Shown here: in pieces, positions 19,239 through 25,937 of the stretch | How the letters are laid out: every line of letters begins with the position of its first letter | Numbering within the stretch: the first letter of the stretch is position 1 | Assembly (NCBI GenBank): GCA_021378535.1 | Contig: JAACJV010000006.1 | Location: 1 to 42,285, forward strand | Length of the DNA: 42,285 nt | From: Ureaplasma sp. Hg1 | Lineage (GTDB): Bacteria; Bacillota_I; Bacilli_A; Mycoplasmatales; Mycoplasmoidaceae | Direction of reading: 5' to 3' | Position numbers and translations under genes: made by a program | Notes under the pieces: model-generated | What the model saw: the letters and a program-made list of their open reading frames with translations, nothing else | Database searches by the model: none | What the model was told of the DNA's origin: nothing

Positions 19239-20084
19239 ATGAAATTATACGAACATCAAATTATTTTACAAGTGGTAGCGACACCAATTGGAAATTTGCA
19301 GGAAATTAATCAACGCGCTAAAGATGCTTTGATTCAAGCAGAAGTTATTTTATGTGAAGACACTCGAACAACAGGTAAATTATTAAAATTACTTGAAATT
19401 AAATATCAAGCAAAATTAGTTAGTTATCACAAGTTTAATGAAACTAAAAAATTAGACACCATTATTGATTTAATCAAACACAACAAAACAGTGTTAGTGA
19501 GTGATGCTGGTTATCCAACTATCAGCGACCCTGGTTACTTATTAATTAAAGCATGTTATGAAGATGATATTGGAGTTGAGGTTATCAATGGCCCATCAGC
19601 TATGATGCATGCCATAGTGGCTAGTGGAATCGAAATGAAGGCATTTATGTTTGTTGGATTTCTTGATCACCTTAAAACCAAGCGTATCAAGGAATTAAAA
19701 AAATATCAAAACATTACAATGCCGTTAGTGCTTTATGAAGCTGTACATCGTATTAATGATACTTTAAATGACATTAAAGCAACTTATGGTAATCGCTTTG
19801 TTGTTGTAGCACGCGAGTTAACAAAACAAAATGAAACTATTTATCGTGGTTACTTAGATAATTATGAAGAAATCACTACTAAGGGTGAATTCGTTGTAAT
19901 AATAGCGCCGCAAATTAAAGCGCCTGTTAATTTAAAGATTCAAGCAGCGCTTGATGAGGTGACAACATTAATGGGTTATAATATGCGTTGCAAGGATGCT
20001 TGTAAATATGTTGGCCATCGTTTTAGTTATGATCCTAAACTTCTTTATGAAGTAATTAACAAAGGGACTGATCAAGATAATTAA
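19239..20084 (+). CDS. rsmI: 16S rRNA (cytidine-1402-2'-O)-methyltransferase
   Basis: A 281-residue tetrapyrrole-methylase-fold enzyme that methylates the ribose of C1402 in 16S rRNA. Signatures are VVATPIGNLQEINQRA, ILCEDTRTTGKLL, SDAGYPTISDPGYLL and INGPSAMMHAIVASGI (SAM site). The start ATG directly follows the rnmV stop. No strong terminator follows; the pyr promoter lies 30 nt downstream, so some read-through into the pyr leader is possible. Confidence 0.95.
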   Translation: MKLYEHQIILQVVATPIGNLQEINQRAKDALIQAEVILCEDTRTTGKLLKLLEIKYQAKLVSYHKFNETKKLDTIIDLIKHNKTVLVSDAGYPTISDPGYLLIKACYEDDIGVEVINGPSAMMHAIVASGIEMKAFMFVGFLDHLKTKRIKELKKYQNITMPLVLYEAVHRINDTLNDIKATYGNRFVVVARELTKQNETIYRGYLDNYEEITTKGEFVVIIAPQIKAPVNLKIQAALDEVTTLMGYNMRCKDACKYVGHRFSYDPKLLYEVINKGTDQDN

Positions 20085-20113: not shown

Positions 20114-20142
20114 TTGCGTTATTTATTTTTATAATGTATTAT
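20114..20142 (+). promoter_or_regulatory. Probable pyr operon promoter
   Basis: -35 TTGCGT (20114-20119), 17-nt spacer, -10 TATTAT (20137-20142). Transcription would start near 20149, in AAAACCCC, about 20 nt before the leader ATG. Confidence 0.6.
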
Positions 20143-20167
20143 TAATAAAACCCCAAAGGAGATTATT

Positions 20168-20260
20168 ATGGTTTGTAAGCAAACTTATAACCCCAGTACT
20201 TTAGACAAAGTAAGAGTAGTTAACTTTGTTGGTGTTTTTGATTTTTATTATTTAGGTTAA
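20168..20260 (+). CDS. pyr operon leader peptide (30 aa)
   Basis: A short open frame, MVCKQTYNPSTLDKVRV then VNFVGVFDFYYLG, with a strong AAAGGAG 6 nt upstream, the same signal and spacing as pyrB. Its final 13 codons are U-rich in the mRNA (Val, Phe, Tyr, Leu). The TAA stop at 20258-20260 lies inside the 5' arm of the following terminator, so a ribosome at the end of the leader would block that hairpin. This is the logic of the enterobacterial pyrBI attenuator (PyrL), where slow transcription at low UTP keeps the ribosome close to RNA polymerase. I do not recognise the peptide itself; it is likely to be regulatory rather than functional. No PyrR-type RNA site was seen. Confidence 0.75.
   Translation: MVCKQTYNPSTLDKVRVVNFVGVFDFYYLG
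20197..20229 (+). promoter_or_regulatory. Two mutually exclusive hairpins inside the pyr leader
   Basis: TACTTT/AAAGTA (20197-20202 with 20207-20212, loop AGAC) competes with ACAAAGT/ACTTTGT (20205-20211 with 20223-20229). They share the AAAGT segment, as in classic attenuators with alternative pairings. Either could act as a transcription-pause hairpin before the U-rich stretch. Confidence 0.5.
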
Positions 20261-20284
20261 ACATTCGTGTTTAACCTTTTTTTT
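20254..20284 (+). terminator. pyr attenuator terminator with UUCG loop
   Basis: AGGTTAAACA (20254-20263) pairs perfectly with TGTTTAACCT (20268-20277) across a TTCG tetraloop, followed by eight Ts. It stands 19 nt before pyrB, between the leader peptide and the operon, and overlaps the leader stop codon. Confidence 0.9.
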
Positions 20285-20302
20285 ATTGCAAAGGAGTTTA
20301 AT

Positions 20303-21244
20303 ATGCAACAATTTAACAAGAATATCGTTAGTATTAATGATATGACTAAAGATGATATTATTTATCTTTTAGATTTAGCAGCGCGTTTAGCTAAATTACC
20401 CAATAAGCACACGTTATTAAGTGATAAAGTAATTAGTAGTTTATTTTTTGAACCTTCAACTAGAACTAGGATGTCATTTGCTTCAGCAGCAAATAAACTA
20501 GGAGCTCGAGTAATAGGTTTTGATAACCCTGACGGTAGTAGTTTAAAAAAAGGCGAATCAATGATTGACACCATTAAAATGGCTGAAGCTTATAGCGATT
20601 TAATTGTAATGCGGCACAATCTTGATGGCGCAGCCCGACTTGCTGCTGAAAATGTTAGCTGTGCTTTTTTAAATGCTGGTGATGGAACAAACCAACATCC
20701 AAGTCAAACACTACTTGATTTATACACTATTAAAAACGAATTAGGTCGCCTTGAAAATATTGAGATCGCTTTTGTTGGCGATTTAAAATATGGCCGCACC
20801 GTTCATTCTTTAACTGCAGCGTTGAAACTGTTTAATGCAAAAATTCATTTTGTGGCACCTGATAACCTTCAAATTCAAGATTCAATTTTAAGGGAATTAG
20901 ATGATGTTAATATAAAATATGAAAAAAGTGATAGCTTAGAAGCTGTTATAAATAAGGTTGATGTTATTTACATGACAAGAATCCAACGTGAAAGATTCGT
21001 TGATGGAGATGATTATCAAAAAGTAAAAGGATGTTATATTTTAACAAAGGATTTATTATTGAGTCAAAAACCAAAACAACATATGATCATTATGCATCCC
21101 TTACCACGAGTAGGTGAAATTAGTACTGATGTTGATAAATTACCTTATGCTAAGTATTTTCAACAAGCAGCTAATGGGGTGCCGGTCCGACAAGCTATGA
21201 TTATGGCAACGCTAAATTTAACCAAACGAATCGGAGATAAATAA
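20303..21244 (+). CDS. pyrB: Aspartate carbamoyltransferase catalytic subunit
   Basis: A 313-residue enzyme joining carbamoyl phosphate and aspartate, the first committed step to UMP. Carbamoyl-phosphate contacts are seen in EPSTRTRMSFASAANKLGA, the loop GSSLKKGESMIDTIK and HPLPR near the C-terminus. DGTNQHPSQTLLDLYT is the other diagnostic block. The ATG at 20303 has AAAGGAG 6 nt upstream; an in-frame start at 20267 lies inside the attenuator and is rejected. The stop overlaps the pyrI start (TAATG). The length and the presence of pyrI place it with the class that forms catalytic-regulatory dodecamers. Expression probably depends on read-through of the leader terminator. Confidence 0.97.
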   Translation: MQQFNKNIVSINDMTKDDIIYLLDLAARLAKLPNKHTLLSDKVISSLFFEPSTRTRMSFASAANKLGARVIGFDNPDGSSLKKGESMIDTIKMAEAYSDLIVMRHNLDGAARLAAENVSCAFLNAGDGTNQHPSQTLLDLYTIKNELGRLENIEIAFVGDLKYGRTVHSLTAALKLFNAKIHFVAPDNLQIQDSILRELDDVNIKYEKSDSLEAVINKVDVIYMTRIQRERFVDGDDYQKVKGCYILTKDLLLSQKPKQHMIIMHPLPRVGEISTDVDKLPYAKYFQQAANGVPVRQAMIMATLNLTKRIGDK

Positions 21245-21702
21245 TGAGTTTAAAAGTAACGACAATTAAGGATGGGGTTGTAATCGATCATATCCCTAGC
21301 GATGATGTCTTTAAGGTGTTTAATATCCTTCATTTACAAGAGCAAAAATATCCTCTAACAATGGCAATGAACCTTCGTTCAAAGGCAATGAATCATAAAG
21401 CGATAATTAAAATTGAATCTAAGCACCTTTCTAAAACAGAATTAATGAAGATAACTTTAATTGCGCCTAGTGCGACAGTTAATTTAATTGTAAATGAAAA
21501 GGTAGTGGAAAAATTACATTTAATTATTCCTCATAATATTATTGATGCTTTATTATGTGATAATAGTAAATGTATTAGTAACCACGAAAAACGTATAAGT
21601 ACTAATTTCAGTATTAATACCCACAATAAGAATCACTACGCTAGATGTTTCTATTGCGAAAAAGAATATTTATTAAAGGAATTATCATTAAATGAAAATT
21701 AA
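21244..21702 (+). CDS. pyrI: Aspartate carbamoyltransferase regulatory subunit
   Basis: A 152-residue allosteric partner of PyrB. The N-terminal nucleotide-binding domain includes VVIDHIPSDDVFKV and MAMNLRSKAMNHKAIIKIE. APSATVNLI is also typical. The zinc domain has all four cysteines: CDNSKC (C-x4-C) and CFYCEKEY (C-x2-C). Retained zinc and nucleotide motifs suggest a working subunit able to sense CTP, UTP or ATP. It overlaps pyrB by 1 nt and pyrK by 11 nt. PyrI is known from enterobacteria, clostridia and archaea; I do not recall it as a usual mollicute gene, which hints at transfer or retention from a clostridium-like ancestor. Confidence 0.95.
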   Translation: MSLKVTTIKDGVVIDHIPSDDVFKVFNILHLQEQKYPLTMAMNLRSKAMNHKAIIKIESKHLSKTELMKITLIAPSATVNLIVNEKVVEKLHLIIPHNIIDALLCDNSKCISNHEKRISTNFSINTHNKNHYARCFYCEKEYLLKELSLNEN

Positions 21703-22465
21703 AAAATACTATGGTGAAGCTATGGTTCTGGAAAATCAAGAAATTGCTCCTAACTATTTCTTGATGAAATTGCAGTTAGATTGTGATCATCATGTTTTAC
21801 CTGGCCAATTTTATATGATTTATAGTAATGACCATACAAAATTATTAGGTCGCCCTTTAAGCGTTTATGATTATCAATCTAAAAAGCGAATTGTGAGTTT
21901 TTACTACGAAGTAGTAGGTAATGGAACAAAAGATATTGCACAATACCGCATCGGTTCATTAATTAAGTTATTAGGACCGTTAGGCAATGGGTTTAAACCA
22001 CCACTTGATCGTAACATATTGATGATTGGTGGTGGCATTGGAATAGCTCCATTTTATTATTATTACCAAGAATTTCAAGCACAAAATAGAATAATGTCAA
22101 TTTTTGGTGGTAGAGATAAAAATGCCTTAAAAATAAGTGAAAAGTTTAACTTTGCCACTATGCTATATAGTGACGATGGTAGTGTTGGCACACACGGTTT
22201 AGTAACAAAGGATTTAGTTACAACAATTAAGAACAAAAAAATTGATTTAGTTTTAGGATGTGGCAACATGATGATGCTCCAAGCTGTAATGAGAATTTGT
22301 AATGAATTAGAAATTGATTGTTTCATATCAGCAGAAAATCGTTTTGCTTGTGGTGTTGGAGCTTGTGATTGCTGTTCAATTAAAGGTAAAGACAAAATGC
22401 TGCGTGTTTGTAAAAGAGGACCAATATTTAATATGAAGGATTTGATAATAGAAAATGAAAAATAA
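21692..22465 (+). CDS. pyrK: Dihydroorotate dehydrogenase electron-transfer subunit
   Basis: A 257-residue FAD and [2Fe-2S] protein passing electrons from dihydroorotate to NAD. FAD site: LGRPLSVYDY. NAD-binding glycines: MIGGGIGIAPFYYY. The C-terminal cluster motif FACGVGACDCCSIKGKDK then VCKRGPIF supplies four cluster cysteines plus one extra Cys. It works as a heterotetramer with the class 1B PyrD encoded next, which it overlaps by 11 nt. Confidence 0.95.
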   Translation: MKIKKYYGEAMVLENQEIAPNYFLMKLQLDCDHHVLPGQFYMIYSNDHTKLLGRPLSVYDYQSKKRIVSFYYEVVGNGTKDIAQYRIGSLIKLLGPLGNGFKPPLDRNILMIGGGIGIAPFYYYYQEFQAQNRIMSIFGGRDKNALKISEKFNFATMLYSDDGSVGTHGLVTKDLVTTIKNKKIDLVLGCGNMMMLQAVMRICNELEIDCFISAENRFACGVGACDCCSIKGKDKMLRVCKRGPIFNMKDLIIENEK

Positions 22466-23420
22466 TTTAGTAACAAAATTTAAAAAAATATCTCTATCAA
22501 CACCTTTACTTAATGCAGCAGGATGTTTTGGTGATTGTTTTAAATATGAAGATATTTTTGATCCTAATGATTTGGGAGCAATTATCACCAAAGGTATTAC
22601 ATTTAATGCAAGAAATGGGAATAACGGCATTAGAGTTGCCGAGACTAATAGTGGGATGATTAATTCAGTTGGTTTAGAAAACGAAGGGATTGATAAATTT
22701 ATAAACACCTCCCTTGAAAAAATGAGTAACAAACTTACTTCACCGATTATTATCAATATTAGTGGAAGCAAACTAGAAGATTATGTTGCATGTGTTCAAA
22801 AGGTTGATAAATGCACTTCAATTGCTGCAATTGAATTAAATATTTCATGCCCTAATGTAAAAGAAGGTGGAATGGCCTTTGGTGCTGATTTTAAATCAGC
22901 AGCAACCATTACTGCAGCAGTTAGAGCTGCAACAACAAAACCATTGATTGTTAAATTAACACCCAATGTGACGGATATTGTAAAGATTGCTTTAGCGGTG
23001 GAAGAAGCTGGTGCTGACGCTATTAGTTTAATTAATACAGTTTTAGCAATGAAAATAGATATTAAAAAACAAAAACCTATGTTAGGTAATATTACAGGTG
23101 GCTTAAGTGGTCCTGCAATTAAACCGATTGCCATTAGAATGATTTATCAAGCAAGTCAGAAAATTAGCATTCCGATTTTTGGAATTGGTGGATGTAGTAA
23201 CCTTGAAGATGTTATTGAGTTCATGATGGCTGGAGCTTCTTTTGTTCAAATCGGTACTGCTTTATTTAATAATCCGAATGTTATTTTAGAAATTACATCA
23301 GGGTTAATAAGTTATTGTAATGAACATAATATTAATAATATAAATGAATTAGTAGGATTAGCTCATAATGATAATGGTATAGGATATCGCGAAAGGATGA
23401 AACAACATGAGTCTAAGTAA
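22455..23420 (+). CDS. pyrD: Dihydroorotate dehydrogenase, NAD-linked class 1B catalytic subunit
   Basis: A 321-residue FMN TIM-barrel protein oxidising dihydroorotate to orotate in the cytoplasm. Seen are NAAGCFGD, the active-site block IELNISCPNVKEGGMAFG with the catalytic Cys of class 1B, PLIVKLTPNVTDI (Lys for FMN) and GGLSGPAIKPIA. The final phosphate-binding part is GIGGCSNLEDVIEFMMAGAS. Class 1B requires PyrK, present next door. It overlaps pyrK (11 nt) and pyrF (14 nt). Confidence 0.96.
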   Translation: MKNNLVTKFKKISLSTPLLNAAGCFGDCFKYEDIFDPNDLGAIITKGITFNARNGNNGIRVAETNSGMINSVGLENEGIDKFINTSLEKMSNKLTSPIIINISGSKLEDYVACVQKVDKCTSIAAIELNISCPNVKEGGMAFGADFKSAATITAAVRAATTKPLIVKLTPNVTDIVKIALAVEEAGADAISLINTVLAMKIDIKKQKPMLGNITGGLSGPAIKPIAIRMIYQASQKISIPIFGIGGCSNLEDVIEFMMAGASFVQIGTALFNNPNVILEITSGLISYCNEHNINNINELVGLAHNDNGIGYRERMKQHESK

Positions 23421-24111
23421 AATTATAGTAGCGTTAGATTATGATAATGAAATTGATGCACTTAAACTTGTTGATCTTTTAGATAAAAGGATTGAAATTT
23501 ATAAAGTAGGTTTAGAGTTGTTTTTAAATAGCGGTGGAAAAATTATTGATGCTCTACATCAGCGAGACAAAAAAATATTTTTAGACCTTAAGTTTCACGA
23601 TATTCCAAACACAGTCTTGCAAGCATGTTCATTTGCATTCAAACAGGAAGTAGCTTTTGTTGACGTACATATCGCTGGTGGTATGAAGATGATGCAACAA
23701 ATAGTTTGTTTAAGAGACAAACTAAAAAGTAAAACAAAGATAATAGGCATTACAATTTTAACTAGTTTTGATGAAAAAAGTATTCAGGATGTTTTTAATA
23801 ATAATTTATCAATTTTAGAAAATACTGAGAAATTGGCACAATTAGCTTATCAATCAAAAATTGATGGTGTGGTTTGTTCAGCTTTCGAGGCTACTAATAT
23901 TAAGAATATCACTAGTTCTAAATTTATCACTATATGTCCTGGAATTCGGTTGAAAAACAATCAATGTAATGACCAAATACGAATAATGTCACCATTACAG
24001 GCATTGCAACATAAAGCTGATTATCTTGTAATTGGTCGACCGATTAATAAAGCACAAAATCCATTAGATGTACTTGATCAAATTGAACACGAGATTAATT
24101 ATGAAAATTAA
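23407..24111 (+). CDS. pyrF: Orotidine 5'-phosphate decarboxylase
   Basis: A 234-residue TIM-barrel enzyme for the last step, OMP to UMP. The catalytic motif DLKFHDIPNTV (Asp-Lys-Asp) is intact. IVALDYDNEIDAL at the N-terminus, FVDVHIAGG and ICPGIRL near the C-terminus and YLVIGRPINKAQNP (phosphate site) confirm the short bacterial type. It overlaps pyrD and pyrC, so the cluster is translationally coupled. Confidence 0.96.
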   Translation: MSLSKIIVALDYDNEIDALKLVDLLDKRIEIYKVGLELFLNSGGKIIDALHQRDKKIFLDLKFHDIPNTVLQACSFAFKQEVAFVDVHIAGGMKMMQQIVCLRDKLKSKTKIIGITILTSFDEKSIQDVFNNNLSILENTEKLAQLAYQSKIDGVVCSAFEATNIKNITSSKFITICPGIRLKNNQCNDQIRIMSPLQALQHKADYLVIGRPINKAQNPLDVLDQIEHEINYEN

Positions 24112-25321
24112 ATTAATAAATGGGTTAGATATTAATATGCAACCAATCAATATTTTAATTGAGGATACTAAAATCATGGTTGTTTCAAGCGAATTAATAT
24201 TACTTAAAACTGATAAAACAATTGACTTGGATAATAATCTAATAATGCCTGGAATCATTGACTGTCACACGCATATGCGAGATCGTCTTCTATGCTATAA
24301 AGAGGATTATGCTACTGGTTCACAAGCTTGTGCGCATGGGGGAATTACCACATTCATCGATATGCCCAACACTAAACCTTACACAATTACAAATGATGAA
24401 TTAACTCTTAAAAAATTTGTAGCAAAAGCTTTATCAATAGTAAATTATGGATTTTACTTTGGCTCAACCGATGATGCTAAACTTGATGAAATCAAACGAG
24501 CATCAAAAAAAACACTAGCAACTAAAATTTTTATGAATGATTCAACAGGTAAAATGAAAATTACTGATACCAAACGCTTGCAAGGAATTATTGACAATTC
24601 CCAGCGTATCTTATTTCATGCATCTGGAGATGTGATAGATTTAATTTTTAAGTGTGATATTAGCAAAGAGAAACTTTTATACTTTTGTCACGTTGCTAAC
24701 CAAGCTGATTTTGTGAAAATTACGAATTATAAAAAGCAAGGTTATAACATCATAATGGAAGTGACACCACACCATTTATTACTGAATGACACGATGATGG
24801 ATAATCAAATTAATGAAAAATTATTGCAAGTCAAACCTCCCTTAGCTTCAACTAAGGATAATGAATTCTTAATTGAAATGTTAAACAAGGGATTTCTTGA
24901 CCTAGTTGGAACTGACCATGCCCCGCATTTACTAAAGGAGAAAGAAACCCAAATTACTTACGGGTTTCCTGGCGTTGAAACATCACTAATTTTGATGCTA
25001 GAATTAGTTTATCAAAAAAAATTAACTTTAAAGATGATTCAAACTTTAATGGCAGAACATCCAGCTGAAATTTTTAAATTAAATTCTAAGGGTAAGATTG
25101 CAAAGGATTATGATGCAGATTTAGTTGTGGTAGATTTACACCGCCCACAAATTATCAAAGGACTTAATAACTATAGCAAGGCTAAATGAACACCCTTTGA
25201 GGGAATGCAAGTTCATAGTACCGTTCTCCAAACTTATGTTAGAGGTCAATTAGTATTTGATGTAGATAAGGGAATTATTAAAAATAGTAAAAAAGCTAGT
25301 AAGGAAATTAATTATGAATAA
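24101..25321 (+). CDS. pyrC: Dihydroorotase
   Basis: A 406-residue amidohydrolase cyclising carbamoyl aspartate to dihydroorotate. Metal ligands: DCHTHMRD (HxH), the two later His regions LFHASGDV and LYFCHVAN, and VGTDHAPH. The segment ATKIFMNDSTGKM resembles the KLFxGSSTGNM type rather than the enterobacterial one. ATG 24101 is chosen because it overlaps the pyrF stop as the other pyr genes do; an upstream in-frame ATG at 24068 lies deep in pyrF. A TGA-coded Trp at 25187 extends the protein 44 residues past the apparent stop, ending in an overlap with pyrE. Confidence 0.93.
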
Positions 25322-25937
25322 AAAAGAAATTATCGCCAAACATTTGTTAGAAACTTACGCAGTACAACTAAATGTTAGCAAACCGTTCACTTTTGTATCA
25401 GGGATTAAATCACCGATTTATTGTGACAACCGAATTTTAATTGGAAATACAATTGCTCGGGAAGCAATTGTTCAACAAATGATTGATATGATTGATGCTA
25501 ATGACTTTGATGTGATTGTTGGTACAGCTACTGCAGGGATTCCTTGGGCTAGCTTTATTGCACAACGACTTAACAAACCTATGAGTTATGTTAGAAGTAA
25601 ACCTAAATCATATGGAGCTAGCAAACAAATCGAGGGAGCAGCTGTCAATAAGCAAAGAGTAATTTTAATTGAAGATTTGATTTCAACTGGAAATTCATCT
25701 TTAAATGCCATCAAAGTGTTACAAACAGCTGGAGCTATAGTACATAATGTTTATGCCATTTTTACTTACAATTTTAAAATCGCATTAGAAAATTTTAAAG
25801 AAGCTGATATTATTCTTCACAATTTATCAGATTTTGAAGCACTAATTAGTGTGGCTAGTAAAGAAAAATATTTATCTAATGAGGACGCTAAAGAGGCGTT
25901 ACTTTGAAATAAAGATCCTAAAAAATGGGGTTTATAA
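25314..25937 (+). CDS. pyrE: Orotate phosphoribosyltransferase
   Basis: A 207-residue enzyme adding PRPP to orotate to give OMP. FVSGIKSPIYCDNR is the orotate-binding start, YVRSKPKSYG the mobile loop and VILIEDLISTGNSS the PRPP motif. TGA at 25905 reads as Trp, and the protein ends NKDPKKWGL, typical of Firmicute PyrE. It overlaps pyrC by 8 nt and closes the operon before a terminator. Confidence 0.96.

Follow-up and report, generated by a model that had tools for sequence, protein, structure and literature searches.

How does a mollicute control pyrimidine synthesis when the regulator expected of its phylum is missing? Enterobacteria are known to attenuate pyrimidine genes by coupling, Bacillota are described as PyrR users, and here, in a genome in which we detect neither PyrR nor its RNA site, the pyr operon lies directly behind a terminator hairpin that encloses the stop codon of a short reading frame. 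We propose that the operon, pyrBIKDFCE, is controlled in place of PyrR by a translation-coupled transcription attenuator of the PyrL type, a reading that we consider likely from the layout of the locus, its conservation in a sister species and the recurrence of the same arrangement in other lineages.

The stretch of DNA that we analysed, hereafter the window, is 42,285 nucleotides long and is contig 39 of a metagenome assembly of Ureaplasma sp. Hg1, which comprises 1.16 Mb and is 85% complete; the genome is reduced, and not minimal as a preliminary description had it. The organism reads TGA as tryptophan, as prs, pyrC and pyrE are intact under translation table 4 only, and the leader frame itself contains no TGA. 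The operon has the order pyrB-I-K-D-F-C-E and runs from 20303 to 25937 on the forward strand, with every gene matched by curated models:

20303 to 21244, forward strand: pyrB, aspartate carbamoyltransferase catalytic subunit (TIGR00670, 362 bits, over cut-off)
21244 to 21702, forward strand: pyrI, aspartate carbamoyltransferase regulatory subunit (TIGR00240, E 1.2e-42, 145.3 bits, slightly below the cut-off of 148.55; PF01948 above its cut-off)
21692 to 22465, forward strand: pyrK, dihydroorotate dehydrogenase electron transfer subunit (NF000798, E 4.5e-56, 190 bits, below the cut-off of 219)
22455 to 23420, forward strand: pyrD, dihydroorotate dehydrogenase (NF005574, 397 bits)
23407 to 24111, forward strand: pyrF, orotidine-5'-phosphate decarboxylase (NF001273, 268 bits)
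24098 to 25321, forward strand: pyrC, dihydroorotase (TIGR00857, 280 bits; one TGA read as Trp; start at 24068 or 24098)
25314 to 25937, forward strand: pyrE, orotate phosphoribosyltransferase (TIGR00336, 124 bits; one TGA read as Trp)

The upstream unit, rsmI, ends at 20084, and about 170 nt separate its stop codon from the hairpin. Further upstream the window also carries a gene for the bacterial small SRP RNA (RF00169; 17510-17600, reverse strand), and the sister species also has one ahead of its operon (L042:3190-3280). Between rsmI and pyrB lie the following features:

20114 to 20142, forward strand: candidate promoter, TTGCGT (20114-20119), a 17-nt spacer and TATTAT (20137-20142), identified from the sequence and from conservation in the sister
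20155 to 20161, forward strand: leader ribosome-binding site AAAGGAG, 6 nt 5' of the ATG (the sister has TAGGAGG at that place)
20168 to 20260, forward strand: leader frame, with ATG at 20168, 30 sense codons MVCKQTYNPSTLDKVRVVNFVGVFDFYYLG and TAA at 20258-20260
20234 to 20253, forward strand: U-rich final codons GTTTTTGATTTTTATTATTT, 15 T in 20 (75%), the proposed site at which polymerase slows when UTP is low
20254 to 20277, forward strand: terminator hairpin, ten perfect pairs (three of them G-C) and a UUCG loop, -9.9 kcal/mol
20277 to 20284, forward strand: terminator T-run of eight T, the first of which is paired in the stem
20290 to 20296, forward strand: pyrB ribosome-binding site AAAGGAG, with the pyrB ATG at 20303

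Thus the preliminary description of a 30-codon frame with a ribosome-binding site, a U-rich end and a stop codon within a 10-bp UUCG terminator in front of pyrB holds base by base. The leader TAA lies in the 5' arm, at position +5 of the 24 in the hairpin, and the UUCG loop is closed by an A-U rather than a C-G pair. This hairpin is the sole strong terminator-like site on the forward strand between 16000 and 27500. The other two frames of the leader contain four and three TAA or TAG stops, and the 45 nt 5' of the hairpin are 56% T, a level matched by 0.8% of forward-strand 45-mers in the window. The promoter claimed for this site fared less evenly: a promoter-like TTGCGT-17-TATTAT is present and is kept in the sister (TTGCAT-17-TATTAT at the same place, with TATTAT and its surroundings retained), but a consensus scan of this AT-rich region gave 72 matches against 71.3 in shuffles, so that it is conservation, and not resemblance to a consensus, that argues for the candidate promoter. 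Transcription from it would start near 20149-20150, about 18 nt 5' of the leader ATG.

Could the hairpin simply be the terminator of the rsmI unit, with a reading frame that overlaps it by chance and with pyrB served by read-through or by a promoter of its own further downstream? The end of rsmI at 20084 and the ease with which promoters are found in AT-rich DNA would allow this, and pyrB loci of Erysipelotrichaceae-like genomes do have ordinary upstream terminators. Those terminators, however, lie 50-113 nt before pyrB, which leaves room for a promoter, whereas only 25 nt separate the window's hairpin from the pyrB ATG, a stretch that the T-run and the ribosome-binding site of pyrB fill. As there is no room for a promoter in this interval, pyr transcripts must pass the terminator at 20254-20284, and read-through is, judged by this layout, obligatory for pyrB transcription. 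The roughly 170 nt between rsmI and the hairpin contain the conserved promoter-like site and the ribosome-binding site. When the leader was shuffled with the hairpin fixed and dinucleotides kept, a frame of at least 25 codons preceded by a ribosome-binding site and ending in the hairpin arose in 0 of 2000 shuffles. A plain terminator with a chance frame is therefore very improbable.

Comparison with the sister species, Ureaplasma sp. Hg2 (JAACJW; also a metagenome assembly, 79% complete, with a pyrB 88% identical), which was the sole other species of the genus compared, indicates which properties of the leader are maintained; this particular leader is known from these two genomes. The sister leader has the same 30 codons, stop position and hairpin, with neither indels nor in-frame stops. 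In its codons 1-21, 18 of the 63 bases are substituted (29%; 71% identical) with zero indels, whereas gaps are needed to align the non-coding DNA just 5' of the leader between the two species. The remainder, codon 22 through the hairpin, is the same in 46 of its 47 bases, even though third positions of pyrB differ by 44% between the species. The substitutions fall almost evenly over the three codon positions (7, 6 and 6) and are non-synonymous in 11 of the 13 changed codons, which suggests that the frame is protected and the peptide sequence is not, although both species end the leader with the same nine residues, GVFDFYYLG. What is kept, as far as the two sequences tell, is the open frame, the U-rich end and the stop within the hairpin, which fits a coupled attenuator and not a peptide with a function of its own.

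The nearest relatives of the window's pyrB suggest where this arrangement came from. A tree built from 39 PyrB proteins groups the window and sister sequences with that of Ilyobacter polytropus (Fusobacteriota) at 98/96 support, apart from the PyrBI proteins of two other mollicutes, G105 and G200. The Ilyobacter gene, 61% identical to the window's, lies on plasmid pILYOP01 in the order pyrB-I-K-D-F-C, and is preceded by a 56-codon frame that starts from a ribosome-binding site; the TAA of this frame falls within the loop of an 18-bp terminator that is 27 nt 5' of pyrB. The product is deposited as a hypothetical protein, WP_013388910.1 (L071:2780-2950), and is very probably a leader peptide of the pyr genes that ends within the terminator. 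The Ilyobacter and window leaders have no peptide similarity. As the closest pyrB found beyond the genus is preceded by a leader of the same build, the genus probably acquired operon and leader together from a Fusobacteriota-like source, which is likelier than local invention; the donor is provisional, as one fusobacterial genome was compared. In G105 and G200, which belong to the same family and carry a related PyrBI operon, neither terminator nor leader precedes pyrB, and no leader was found before PyrI-type pyrB in ten Erysipelotrichaceae-like and other Bacilli genomes. Because G105 and G200 lack PyrR as well, a PyrBI operon can evidently exist with neither. G200 does have, at the place of the leader a few dozen nucleotides 5' of pyrB (L068), a short inverted repeat, GAGTAG-TTAG-CTACTC, with no T-run, which could be an operator or an RNA site. 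A search of viral contigs for fusobacterial pyrB gave no match.

A second set of leaders occurs in six genomes to which we give, from their family, genome size and genetic code, the inferred label Spiroplasma-like (G061, G082, G085, G112, G132 and G177; pyrB loci L107-L112). Their pyrB is of the second mollicute class and forms a clade of its own with 100/100 support. At all six loci a leader of 39-53 codons has its stop inside a terminator hairpin, with a ribosome-binding site of the AAGGTGA or GGGGG type and pyrimidine-rich last codons; such a frame arose in 5-12 of 2000 shuffles per locus, and at four loci a promoter-like region (TTTACA and TATTAT or TAATAT) and the ribosome-binding site are conserved. 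These leaders, which stand before a different pyrB, are independent of the window's set. The preliminary description had left open whether the window's switch was convergent or inherited; acquisition with the operon is the likelier course for the window, and the Spiroplasma-like leaders form a separate set.

Five of the six Spiroplasma-like genomes carry, in addition, a leader of 31-43 codons that starts from a ribosome-binding site and ends in a terminator ahead of an NCS2 gene resembling uracil permease (L139 in G085, L140 in G177, L141 in G061, L143 in G082 and L144 in G132). Shuffles yielded such a frame in 0-9 of 2000 cases, and the G082 and G177 leaders differ by an in-frame deletion of 3 nt. 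In Bacillus, PyrR classically acts on the pyr operon and on uracil permease, the permease gene being a target in B. subtilis, so that the set of genes behind these leaders points to pyrimidine sensing. No leader precedes the uracil permease gene of the window genome, and its pyr leader has no peptide similarity to a Spiroplasma-like uracil-permease leader. The stretch TTTTTGAT, encoding the peptide (V/L)FD(F/I), is common to 20234-20253 of the window and the uracil-permease leaders L140, L141 and L143; in unrelated leaders such as these it may reflect chance or a common pause signal. Spiroplasma-like genomes and the two genomes of the window's genus have purine riboswitch aptamers (RF00167) ahead of the second NCS2 permease gene (L145:1271-1370, L146:1241-1336, L149:1267-1367 and L150:1239-1334), which suggests that purine uptake is governed by a riboswitch and the pyr genes apparently by coupling.

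PyrR and the leaders exclude each other among the genomes examined. In the window genome and the sister, no protein matched PyrR above the cut-off of 138 bits; the best scored 29.6 bits and is the 3' fragment of a hypoxanthine phosphoribosyltransferase gene (hpt) cut by the contig end; in the sister the orthologue is intact and matches HGPRTase with 196 bits. This fragment, at 1-312 of the window, could mislead automatic PyrR annotation. The phosphoribosyltransferases of the genome are best classified as hpt (two), apt, prs, pyrE and upp, to which come purF, assigned by inspection, and one weak uracil-phosphoribosyltransferase-like protein. The PyrR RNA site (RF00515) was found in none of this genome, the sister and G105, with Bacillus subtilis as a positive control. 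As neither genome of the genus is complete, the absence of PyrR is strong and not absolute. Across the order, PyrR exceeds the cut-off in 7 of 198 genomes (G018, G084, G088, G100, G106, G156 and G171), with its gene always immediately 5' of pyrB, and in none of the six leader-bearing Spiroplasma-like genomes. Of the mollicutes with pyrB that we examined, eight possess a leader and seven PyrR, and none possesses both; G105, G180, G186, G200 and genus g7 have neither. The earlier proposal of a leader-peptide attenuator in place of PyrR is therefore well supported: neither pyrR nor a matching site was found, frame, stop and hairpin all survive alignment with the related leader, and read-through appears obligatory.

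A terminator before pyrB is nonetheless the classic layout of PyrR control in Bacillota, and the window leader folds somewhat better than its shuffles (z -1.62), as might be expected if an RNA-binding protein or a ligand-binding RNA operated the terminator and the short frame were incidental. Such an attenuator is quite improbable. Beyond the missing PyrR and PyrR site, the window leader has no Rfam match, the two sister leaders differ in the fold of their initial 60 nt, and a frame started from a ribosome-binding site ends inside the hairpin in all nine pyrB leaders examined. Pairing of upstream RNA with the terminator arm is at the shuffle level in these nine (window z = +1.0) and equally in E. 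coli pyrL, which makes ten leaders in all. That no competing antiterminator exceeds chance argues against control of the riboswitch or trp type, and the window likewise lacks the antiterminator hairpin, competing for the terminator arm, that marks amino-acid leaders of the trp and his type. A stem near 20220, 5' of the U-rich stretch, occurs in both sister leaders in shifted register, and we do not claim it as a conserved pause hairpin.

We therefore favor a coupled attenuator that would operate as follows. Transcription would start before the leader ATG and would have to cross the terminator to reach pyrB, while a ribosome would initiate on the leader frame. When UTP is scarce, RNA polymerase would slow in the U-rich last codons and the ribosome would catch up; at the stop codon it would cover the 5' arm and loop as the polymerase crosses the T-run, so that no terminator could form and pyrB would be read. 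When UTP is plentiful, the polymerase would run ahead of the ribosome, and the hairpin would fold and terminate transcription. Leader translation, polymerase-ribosome coupling, pausing and UTP as the signal are all predicted elements of this scheme, and several precedents bear on them. In E. coli, moving a stop codon to 5 bp before a terminator lowers termination from about 90% to below 10% (PMC4824070), and prevention of the terminator requires tight coupling across pyrL (PMC5021804). In Mycoplasma pneumoniae, polymerase and ribosome are coupled in an expressome bridged by a C-terminal extension of NusA (PMC8116511), which makes coupling in mollicutes plausible. The NusA C-terminal tail is 109-128 residues long in all leader-bearing genomes measured; we rejected it as a marker of coupling, as it does not discriminate, long tails occurring also in the PyrR genomes G018, G084, G106 and G156.

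A coupled attenuator need not respond to UTP: shortage of charged tRNA at the Phe/Tyr-rich end of the leader, arrest by the nascent peptide, or a general readout of coupling or translation speed could each set the position of the ribosome. The identity of GVFDFYYLG in the two sisters, and the preservation of a frame and not just an RNA, would suit such a signal. The same stretch, however, is nearly identical in DNA, third positions included, which fits a constraint on DNA or RNA; leaders across lineages have U-richness and stop placement in common and no codon run or peptide; no alternative hairpin is present for a stalled ribosome to release; and in every lineage the genes controlled serve pyrimidine metabolism, counting uracil transport. 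We thus regard a signal other than UTP as unlikely. Beyond the window, we lean modestly towards the view that PyrR-less mollicutes run their pyrimidine regulon (the pyr operon, and uracil permease in Spiroplasma-like genomes) by coupling alone, through non-homologous leaders that stop within a terminator, that take the place of PyrR and that had at least two origins or acquisitions, one with a Fusobacteriota-like PyrBI operon and one in the Spiroplasma-like lineage.

These leaders bear on a wider question, since transcription and translation are largely uncoupled in Bacillus subtilis (PMC8116511, PMC7858274), and a 2010 statement held that leader-peptide systems were unknown beyond Proteobacteria and Actinobacteria, except for those of the ermC type and the histidine leaders of that paper (PMC2965389). 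Leaders for which coupling is the only plausible logic, in several wall-less relatives of Bacillus, would tie this mode of control to the M. pneumoniae expressome, and the pyr leaders would offer a natural, testable readout of polymerase-ribosome coupling in Mollicutes. Moreover, the mutual exclusion of leader and PyrR would be a clear case of one regulatory logic replacing another on a single pathway.

Of the systems already known, PyrR attenuation in Bacillota, including some mollicutes, resembles the window in placing the same genes under terminator-based control, but needs PyrR and its RNA site, neither of which was found in the window genome. Attenuation of E. coli pyrE through rph (orfE) is alike in that the end of translation near a terminator sets UTP-responsive read-through, although rph is a full gene upstream of pyrE and the window has a 30-codon leader. 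The closest parallel is E. coli pyrL/pyrBI (NC_000913, L083). Both loci have a short frame, started from a ribosome-binding site, before pyrB, with pyrimidine-rich codons just before an intrinsic terminator that lies 25-30 nt from pyrB, and both lack an antiterminator RNA and PyrR. The window's U-rich stretch and terminator lie between the candidate promoter and pyrB, and a ribosome on its frame would, by position, be able to cover the terminator. The geometry differs, as had been noted from the outset: the 44-codon pyrL frame stops 44 nt after the first base of the hairpin, well beyond it, whereas the window's frame does not run past the terminator and ends in its 5' arm. Downstream of pyrL lies pyrBI alone, whereas the window has the whole pyr pathway, in a distant phylum that reads TGA as tryptophan. 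The window leader has no BLASTP alignment with PyrL at E <= 100, and this, together with the stop inside the hairpin, suggests that the leader works like PyrL attenuation and is not homologous to it.
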